From the NCBI GenBank assembly GCA_025677835.1, contig JAIXMR010000003.1, forward strand, positions 434,001 to 498,000: DNA of 64,000 nt, written 5' to 3'. This document shows positions 49,537 to 52,050 of the stretch, one piece after another (within the stretch, counting starts at the first letter, position 1; each line of letters begins with the position of its first letter). The notes below the pieces were generated by a model. That model was not told where the DNA came from. It saw only the letters and a list, made by a program, of their open reading frames with translations, and did no database searches. The position numbers were made by a program, and so were the translations under genes. This stretch comes from Sporodiniella umbellata (lineage: Eukaryota; Mucoromycota; Mucoromycetes; Mucorales; Rhizopodaceae).

Positions 49537-50695
49537 TTATGGTTCATCAATCATCATATGCTTTGTGTTCTTTTTCTGGTGAAATGCAACCCATCCCTCA
49601 CGCCTAGGAAGGGTTTTTTTGGCCCAAAGTTCTAAAAATCTTCCACGCTTTAATACTTCATTATATCCAGCTTTTGGGAGCAGTGTTTCGATCATGTCAT
49701 AGACACCAGGGGGCTTCGGCTCGGTATACTCATGGTTTATCCATTGGTCTGTAGGAATTTCAAAATCAATAATTACATCTGGTGAACGCTGATGCCTTAG
49801 TTCAAAGCCTTCTCCCTGTTGGGTGATGTATAACCATAAGAAAAACCATAATATGCAACCTTCTTCTTACCTTTTTGAACATTAACAGTATTTCCTTCGT
49901 TGAGCTAATATACGGGCTTGGGTTGTCCAAATGTACATTATTAACAGACTTCTTGAACCAAACCAAATTTTCAACATATTTACAATCTACAGATCGGATC
50001 ATGTTTAAGTTTTAAGCTTTCACTTCTCTTTGAATACAAGCAACATACCAATAGTATACATCATTCTCACTAAATCTGCCTGAATAAGTTTATGTGTCCA
50101 AACAAATACAAGCCCAGCAGTCATATGTCTAACAACTTTTTCCATCAAAACTTGAAAGTCTGATAGGTTTAAGCAACAGTTGCCATCATTTCTGCCATCA
50201 GCAACGTAGAATTCCCAAGGCGGATCTACTAGAATACCTTCGAGCGGAGACATTTCATCGAAGTTGCCTTGTGTTTCTGCTATCTGATCTAACATGGGTA
50301 TACAGTCGTTCATGTTTTCCAACTCAAAGTAGTTCATCTTTGACGCATCTGGGGTAGGTCGATTAATCGATTGTTGAATTTGTTTCACACCGCTATACAG
50401 ATCGTTTGGGATTCTCACAAAAGAAATGAGCTCATCAGGTGTATCCACTTTTTTCTTCTTCACTCCAGTAAAAAATCTAGATAAGGTTGACTGAACTGCC
50501 TTGCTGTTGTTTACTTTCATTGGGGGAAGTGTGGACGATTTCTGCATCATGTTTCTTCGCATAAGCCTAAGATGTGTATTAGTACTAAATTTCTATTTAG
50601 GGTTTTCTTTTACATTTCTGTAGTCAAAAGCCCTCTACGCCATTCTTGCTTGGCAAGCCAAGACGCATGTCGTTTTTCTCTATCTTGGTAAAGTC

Positions 50696-50726
<31 letters not shown>

Positions 50727-52050
50727 GCGTCTTTTTAAAAAAAGGTGGTGAAAATTCCCTGTTAATCTTACTTTAAGAACTCTTTATAATTAGTCAATCT
50801 ATCGTTCCATTCTGCCACCAAGTCCCGCTGCTGAAGATGTGCTATCTCTGGATCTACTGTCTCTTCTTGAAAATCGTCGTCGTCTCCTGTTTTAGGCTTT
50901 CGGGGTGGCATTTTTTTTACCAAGTCTGAGATATTGGTTTTTTGGCTGACAGTTTTCAATTTAGGTTTTGAAATAGGTCTACTTTTCGCTACAGGCTGCA
51001 TGCGATTGTGGAACTCTTTGATCCATTGATTGACATTTTTTTCAATTTCTTTCACGTCTTCGTCTTCCCATTCAGCAGTATCGTCTACTGTAGGTGTCCC
51101 AGATATACCTCGTTCTTTTTGCACATGCTTCAATTTTCCGTCAACTACTGTATAACTACTATCCTCTAATCTCCTATCCAAAACCAATTTACGATAATAG
51201 TTCATACATTGGTAACCGACCTATTGTTCAGCATTTTAGTGCTGTTTACATTCTTCTTAAAAAAAAAAAAAGGTGGTGCTATTTACTCTGTGAGGTATAG
51301 CTACACTGAAAAGGCCCCAAGCCATACCAATCTTCCATCCTTTTGAAATCCATTCATTGTATCTTTCCATAAACAATTGATGCTCTGTATTCGACCAAAT
51401 ACCATTCCTTTGACCATATCCAGGCACAACAAGTCTAAAATAATACGCTTCTGGGTTCTTGATGAAAAAAAAAACAAAAGAAAAAAGCGGTCAGTGCTTT
51501 TTCTATAAAAAAAGTTATATATATATATATATATATACCACACGTCGGGCTTCCCAGGCTTTTATACGAGAAGCCTGCCAAGTTTTGACAACCTCTCTTG
51601 CAAATACATCTTCTCCGGCTCTTTTTCTTTTTTTGGTGGGCGGCTCAGTGACTGAAAGTGTTTTAAACCGGGAAGTTTCTTCATCAAGAAAAGGATTATT
51701 ATTTACACTATCTTCTACTTTGAGTTTTTTTTCTTCAGCAGTAATAGCCTCTGCAAAAGATTCATCATCGTCTAGATCCATTTGACCCTCAGGTGAAGAA
51801 GGTTCATGAGCTGAACATTCAGTCATTTCAATTTCATTTGACTTGCTTTTTCCTTTGTGATCTAACTATTTTTTTCTTTGGGTAAGGATATACAGTCATA
51901 CAACAAATAGACAAAAGAAATATTTACTGGGTCTTCTATTTTCGCCTGTATACTGCTATTACTTTTGGTTTTAGATAAACTCAGTATTTTTGAGGAAGAC
52001 TTTGAAGATTCGGGTACATGGTCTTCTTGTTTTTTAAACCACAAGCTCAT
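49537..52050 (-). CDS. MT-A70 N6-adenine methyltransferase with Myb/SANT domain and PIP box (MTA1/AMT1-like candidate)
   Basis: Eight exons (minus): 52050-51928, 51865-51539, 51457-51287, 51220-50772, 50679-50614, 50566-50049, 49986-49871 and 49815-49537, giving 682 aa in one frame. Order: basic/Ser-rich start; NLS TKKRKR (118-123); Myb/SANT-like domain (about 169-219: GIWSNTEHQLFMERYNEW, then WGLFSVAIPHRVGYQCMNYY across a splice); acidic and basic linkers; PIP box QSTLSRFF (404-411) followed by KKKK; MT-A70 domain from about 455 with catalytic DPPW (493-496), VFVWTHKL, VENLVWFKK and the C-terminal KPPGVYDMIETLLPKAGYNE with FLELWAKK. The ending differs from METTL3, METTL14 and METTL4 as I remember them and resembles the MTA1/AMT1 DNA 6mA group of ciliates and early fungi. 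Domain calls are direct; DNA as substrate is inferred. Confidence 0.86.
51516..51537. repeat. (AT)n tract in methyltransferase intron 2
   Basis: About eleven AT units immediately after the GT donor of intron 51538-51459, so the donor reads GTATATATAT. A second TA-rich tract (50695-50726) lies in intron 4 of the same gene. Confidence 0.9.

Follow-up and report, generated by a model that had tools for sequence, protein, structure and literature searches.

How fungi copy 6mA after replication is, to our knowledge, an open question. A gene in a 64,000-nucleotide stretch of the Sporodiniella umbellata genome (the window, meaning the whole stretch of DNA that was analysed) has a predicted protein that combines an MT-A70 domain with a PCNA-interaction motif. 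An earlier note, made from the letters of the window, proposed that the protein is an adenine methyltransferase recruited to the replication fork. We asked whether the gene encodes one protein, what kind of MT-A70 protein it is, and how it might serve 6mA.

The gene occupies the minus strand at 52050..49537, where eight exons make up an unbroken frame of 687 aa; the seven introns between them are all GT..AG and measure 47 to 81 bases. The earlier note had likewise joined minus-strand frames into one spliced protein with identical ends, although its length was given as 682 aa, five fewer than in our model. The exons, and a motif in the second of them, are as follows.

51928..52050, minus strand: exon 1, with the start codon, aa 1-41; the weakest exon, in which no homology was seen
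51539..51865, minus strand: exon 2, aa 42-150; an acidic stretch, the NLS-like TKKRKR and the beginning of the SANT region
51620..51637, minus strand: NLS-like TKKRKR, aa 118-123; a motif only
51287..51457, minus strand: exon 3, aa 151-207; first part of the SANT-like domain
50772..51220, minus strand: exon 4, aa 208-356 and two bases of codon 357; closing part of the SANT-like domain (VGYQCMNYYRKLV) and the linker behind it
50614..50694, minus strand: exon 5, aa 357-383 and two bases of codon 384; charged linker
50049..50566, minus strand: exon 6, aa 384-556 and one further base; PIP box and first half of the MT-A70 domain, including DPPW
49871..49986, minus strand: exon 7, MT-A70 domain, KYVENLVWFKK..
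49537..49815, minus strand: exon 8, end of the MT-A70 domain with RHQRSPD, IETLLPKA and ELWAKK; stop codon

An alternative in-frame start within exon 2 is possible. The NLS TKKRKR that had been pointed out before is present, at the level of a motif. The gene model is predicted from sequence alone, exon 5 is short, and the relatives of the SANT-like and MT-A70 parts are separate proteins in the same genome, all of which would suit a model that wrongly fuses two genes, one for a Myb/SANT protein and one for a PIP-MT-A70 protein. We consider such a fusion highly improbable, as all seven introns are phase-consistent and the joined frame has no internal stop. The pairing of the PIP box with DPPW is independent of splicing, since a single uninterrupted frame of 190 aa (50592..50020) holds both, and the joining of the SANT half to the PIP/MT-A70 half hinges on introns 3 to 5 being spliced. 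The donor of intron 3 as placed gives IPHRVGYQC, which matches IPGRVGYQC of a related protein (locus L013, described below), and this relative also aligns without a gap across the 3' end of exon 2. Intron 5 contains a branch-point-like TACTAAT, and two introns have (TA)n runs, perhaps of variable length (window positions 50696-50726 and about 51515-51538).

We then examined the C-terminal half, where the following features lie.

49600..50235, minus strand: MT-A70 domain, aa 495-667, with introns 6 and 7 inside it; matches PF05063 and Tetrahymena MTA9 (E 1.3e-15)
50215..50226, minus strand: DPPW, aa 498-501

The intact DPPW in an MT-A70 domain, seen before, was confirmed at aa 498, and PF05063 matched the protein above the cut-off (E 1.7e-7). 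When the domain alone was compared with the PDB, Tetrahymena MTA9/AMT7 of the MTA1 complex, MTA1c (7yi8_A, 9o6k_A, 9u92_B), was the best match (60.8 bits), followed by MTA9-B (6.7e-14), Paramecium MTA9 (1.3e-11) and MTA1 (5e-8, 36.0 bits). Thirteen PDB sequences, three of them unrelated, were listed at E<=10, and no METTL3, METTL14 or METTL4 chain was among them; an RNA-type origin from these families was rejected on this ground. The domain had earlier been assigned to the DNA-6mA side of the MT-A70 family, outside the RNA clades. By similarity it does fall with MTA1 and MTA9, and within this pair it belongs with MTA9 rather than MTA1.

To place the protein among its relatives at home, we searched the assembly (25.9 Mb, 198 contigs) with the PF05063 profile and obtained three loci, on contigs C1, C32 and C178. 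The 687-aa gene itself was not recovered, so that other diverged MT-A70 genes could have been missed as well. The C1 protein is MTA1, with E 1e-72 to Tetrahymena MTA1 and 5e-34 to METTL3. The C32 protein is of the MTA9 type, 428 aa long, with seven exons and DPPF (locus L006, minus strand, about 3728-2134). The C178 protein matches 7cv6_B (E 6e-21), named methyltransferase-like protein 2 in the PDB, which we take to be METTL4-like. About 4 kb separate the C32 gene from the beginning of its contig, and upstream of the gene are short repeats whose frames read much like VPGRVPSR repeatedly. Compared with these proteins, the 687-aa protein scored 104 bits to the C32 MTA9 (30% identity over 292 aa, E 1e-27) versus 43 bits as query, or 55 reversed, to the C1 MTA1, and gave nothing significant against the METTL4-like protein. 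No SANT domain was seen in the C32 MTA9, and its introns, compared by eye, are elsewhere.

The earlier note had called for an MT-A70 phylogeny. Small trees of 7, 6 and 8 rows were built, with METTL3 and METTL14 outside the row set. They placed the 687-aa protein beside MTA9 with support of 89/97 (7 rows) and 94/96 (8 rows), and in the 6-row tree, from which the METTL4-like row was excluded, the split on the MTA9 side received 100/100. The branch is long, and two other groupings were not rejected at 5%, namely with MTA1 (p-AU 0.071 with 6 rows and 0.053 with 8 rows) and with the METTL4-like row (p-AU 0.055 and 0.053). Pairing with the C32 protein had a p-AU of 0.289 (6 rows), and placing the protein outside the remaining MTA9 rows was not rejected either (p-AU 0.535, 8-row tree). 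The signatures RHQR..D and IETLLP occurred in all five MTA9-type rows, the 687-aa protein included, and in none of the three other rows. These data indicate, with moderate tree support, that the domain is by its sequence of the MTA9 type, the type of the partner subunit in ciliate MTA1c, and not of the catalytic type. Our best reading is a second MTA9 subunit that is evolving fast.

The end branch of the protein measured 1.48 to 1.63 in the three trees, and the protein was seen in one genome only; a search of genome_contigs for relatives returned zero, and a search of viral_contigs returned 4 loci with matches of 28 residues only. A protein with such a history might act on RNA, or might have left methylation and become a diverged MT-A70 pseudoenzyme, for example a chromatin adaptor. 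We regard this as very improbable, given that the core MTA9 signatures are retained, that the NLS, SANT-like domain and PIP box suit DNA, and that the PDB matches listed contain none of the METTL3, METTL14 and METTL4 chains.

Is the 687-aa protein then a catalyst or a partner? Two features speak for the former, which was the earlier proposal of an active, PCNA-recruited adenine methyltransferase and 6mA counterpart of DNMT1. The protein has DPPW at the position where Tetrahymena MTA9 has INALW, MTA9-B has INIKW and the C32 protein has DPPF, and it retains the lysine of the KP motif, presumably equivalent to METTL3 K513. It thus shares both the MT-A70 family and DPPW with MTA1/AMT1 (C1; 7f4r_A). 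However, FGR..N and the terminal N[EQ] are absent: where the C1 MTA1 reads FGRKNN .. NE, the 687-aa protein reads ELWAKKTL .. HQ, and the C32 protein reads ELWAKRGQ in place of ELWAKKTL (the Tetrahymena MTA1 fragment that was aligned stops before FGR..N). METTL3 also has FGR..N, residues that hold SAM in METTL3 structures. In addition, the protein lacks a loop, RGVAIAY, that comes after DPPW in each of the two MTA1 rows. With FGR..N and the loop gone, we read the 687-aa protein as probably a non-catalytic partner subunit, and the full MTA1 encoded on C1 as the likely catalyst. Together with the MTA9 type of the domain, these differences make it improbable that the protein is itself the methyltransferase, and this part of the earlier proposal was not supported.

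The element that would connect such a partner with replication lies upstream of the MT-A70 domain.

50470..50493, minus strand: PIP box QSTLSRFF, aa 409-416, followed by TGVKKKK; matches the consensus and 2od8_B

The segment QSTLSRFFTGVKKKK agrees with the PIP consensus, and Q..[LIM]..[FY][FY] with a basic flank is present, in line with the canonical box and four lysines described before. We compared a 30-aa segment around the box with the 177,635 distinct sequences of the PDB, and the sole sequence listed at E<=10 was 2od8_B, a DNA ligase I peptide (E 0.097). This chain B of 2OD8, a 22-residue peptide that we take to be the yeast ligase peptide complexed with PCNA, aligned as KKPKQATLARFFTSMKNK against SKAVQSTLSRFFTGVKKK, and the likeness spans 18 residues, past the 8-residue consensus. 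Since the only PDB match listed is a DNA ligase I peptide, the PIP box is convincing at the level of sequence. In 20,000 shuffles of the 687-aa protein, Q..[LIM]..FF appeared in 0.46%, the looser Q..[LIM]..[FYW][FYW] in 3.4%, and Q..[LIM]..[FY][FY] followed by three basic residues within six positions in 0.045%, the last being a pattern devised after the sequence had been seen.

There is another way to account for this segment, in which the protein is still an MTA9-type subunit of a 6mA complex, the PIP-like segment represents a linker motif of the family with a chance resemblance to a PIP box, and the SANT-like domain alone targets DNA or chromatin, for example at promoters. The C32 MTA9 carries VQDRNGNYFTIKKK opposite VQSTLSRFFTGVKKK, and the local score of the upstream regions was 55 against a shuffle maximum of 51 (none of 1000 shuffles as high). 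Thus the MTA9 family may already have had the Q, the aromatic pair and the basic tail at PIP spacing, so that chance may have added only the leucine. Because one hydrophobic position is enough to complete the consensus, a fortuitous PIP box is likelier than the shuffles imply. As a bare DNA pattern, moreover, the PIP box is not rare and is hardly enriched in the genome (64 matches versus 55 in the reversed control), and this genome-wide count was set aside as evidence for a PIP box. On the other side, the likeness to the ligase I peptide extends beyond the consensus, and the segment of the C32 paralogue is not a PIP box, because N stands at the position that needs a hydrophobic residue. We think a chance resemblance unlikely, but it is the alternative to be taken most seriously.

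The loose PIP pattern was found in none of three proteins, MTA1, the C32 MTA9 and the METTL4-like protein. As a control we used a DNA ligase I-like locus, L031, and found no PIP pattern in its frames of at least 60 aa. All three minus frames of this locus gave a single match, QTPIFSYF at 2989, which was left unused because its coding status was not established. In L031, a minus-strand frame at 3493-3101, upstream of the ligase I-like catalytic part, contains KQLTLHSAYFSKDG, which has the look of a degenerate PIP box but not its canonical pair of aromatic residues.

The third element of the protein lies in its N-terminal half.

51146..51580, minus strand: Myb/SANT-like region, about aa 137-232, split by introns 2 and 3; homologous to the L013 protein

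A Pfam scan of the whole 687-aa protein at E<=1 showed no Myb/SANT domain, and PF00249 on the SANT segment alone gave E 0.027 and 15.0 bits, under its cut-off of 24.4. Support for the Myb/SANT-like domain of the earlier note came instead from homology. In a one-to-one comparison, 96 aa of the region were 44% identical (E 5e-24) to a protein encoded on the same contig at a distance of about 258 kb (L013, G000:C122:225007-225312). This relative gave nothing in Pfam at E<=0.01, and its matches to c-Myb in the PDB were weak: 1h88_C with E 1.9e-5 for the whole sequence and no single stretch passing, and 1gv2_A with E 0.0049 in one stretch. We infer that the SANT-like domain would bind DNA or histones. 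Structures predicted with AlphaFold for the MTA1 domain and the SANT relative had pLDDT values of 47.1 and 41.5, too low to be of use. The frame at L013:1363-2352 has the same extended SANT-like domain and, C-terminal to it, the stretch NPLPGFLDPITLEEVVKPAIS.., which to us resembles a U-box-like module.

Judged by sequence, then, the predicted protein unites an MTA9-type domain, a SANT-like domain and a canonical PIP box, in a genome with one MTA1 gene and one gene for a PIP-less MTA9 elsewhere; one PCNA locus was found, on C30. We lean towards the view that the 687-aa protein serves the fungal MTA1 complex as a second partner subunit, of the MTA9 type, and that its PIP box and SANT-like domain link MTA1 to PCNA and DNA for replication-coupled, symmetric 6mA. 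The protein would pair with MTA1, as ciliate MTA9 does. Its PIP box would dock the heterodimer on PCNA behind the fork, which would couple 6mA to replication, and its SANT-like domain would keep hold of DNA or chromatin. MTA1 would thereby meet new hemimethylated ApT sites, which might be filled soon after replication. The PIP-less C32 MTA9 would serve bulk methylation or another pathway. The MTA1 complex is reportedly essential in Rhizopus microsporus.

The closest known systems are in ciliates. Tetrahymena MTA9/AMT7 has RHQR..D and IETLLP in common with the 687-aa protein, but no SANT domain or PIP box was seen in its aligned parts. MTA9-B (8xyl_B; also 9vu6, whose title names MTA9-B), which we take to be AMT6, is likewise a second MTA9-type subunit and would be the functional analogue. 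AMT6 and AMT7 reportedly share AMT1 in Tetrahymena, with the AMT6 complex recruited by PCNA. If so, ciliates already provide the principle, and what is new is the fungal form, a SANT-like domain and a PIP box in one MTA9 paralogue. Pairing of the 687-aa protein with MTA9-B was disfavoured (p-AU 0.028), and the ciliate proteins cluster together (96/95, 7 rows); given the first of these results, the fungal form probably arose by a separate route. Tentatively, and with more doubt than confidence, we suggest that MTA9 was duplicated separately in fungi and in ciliates and that both gave one copy to PCNA, the fungal combination of PIP box, SANT-like domain and MTA9 fold forming a complex for replication-coupled 6mA maintenance that is independent of the ciliate one in origin.

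DNMT1 is the PCNA-recruited enzyme of 5mC maintenance, and the logic proposed here, a PIP box together with a methyltransferase, is the same. However, DNMT1 is an unrelated enzyme that modifies another base, and in the 687-aa protein the PIP box sits on a probable partner subunit. Should the proposal hold, coupling to PCNA would emerge as a general route for maintaining adenine methylation, as it is for that of cytosine, built from different parts. The PIP-bearing paralogue offers one gene and one short motif with which the copying of 6mA can be tested. In the assembly, the PF00145 profile found only one gene region (L067/L068, G000:C180:12404-13434), with the motif PPCQPYTR, which we take to be a Dnmt2-like signature; a C5 maintenance methylase was thus not found in the assembly by this search.

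Rfam and tRNA scans over the window gave no matches. The style of the introns and the genes present agree with a Mucoromycota fungus. The neighbours of the gene look ordinary: one flank carries ribosomal protein S23 and a frame that resembles a nucleoside monophosphate kinase, both named from their sequences, and the other carries an M48 peptidase and a short protein containing Cys.
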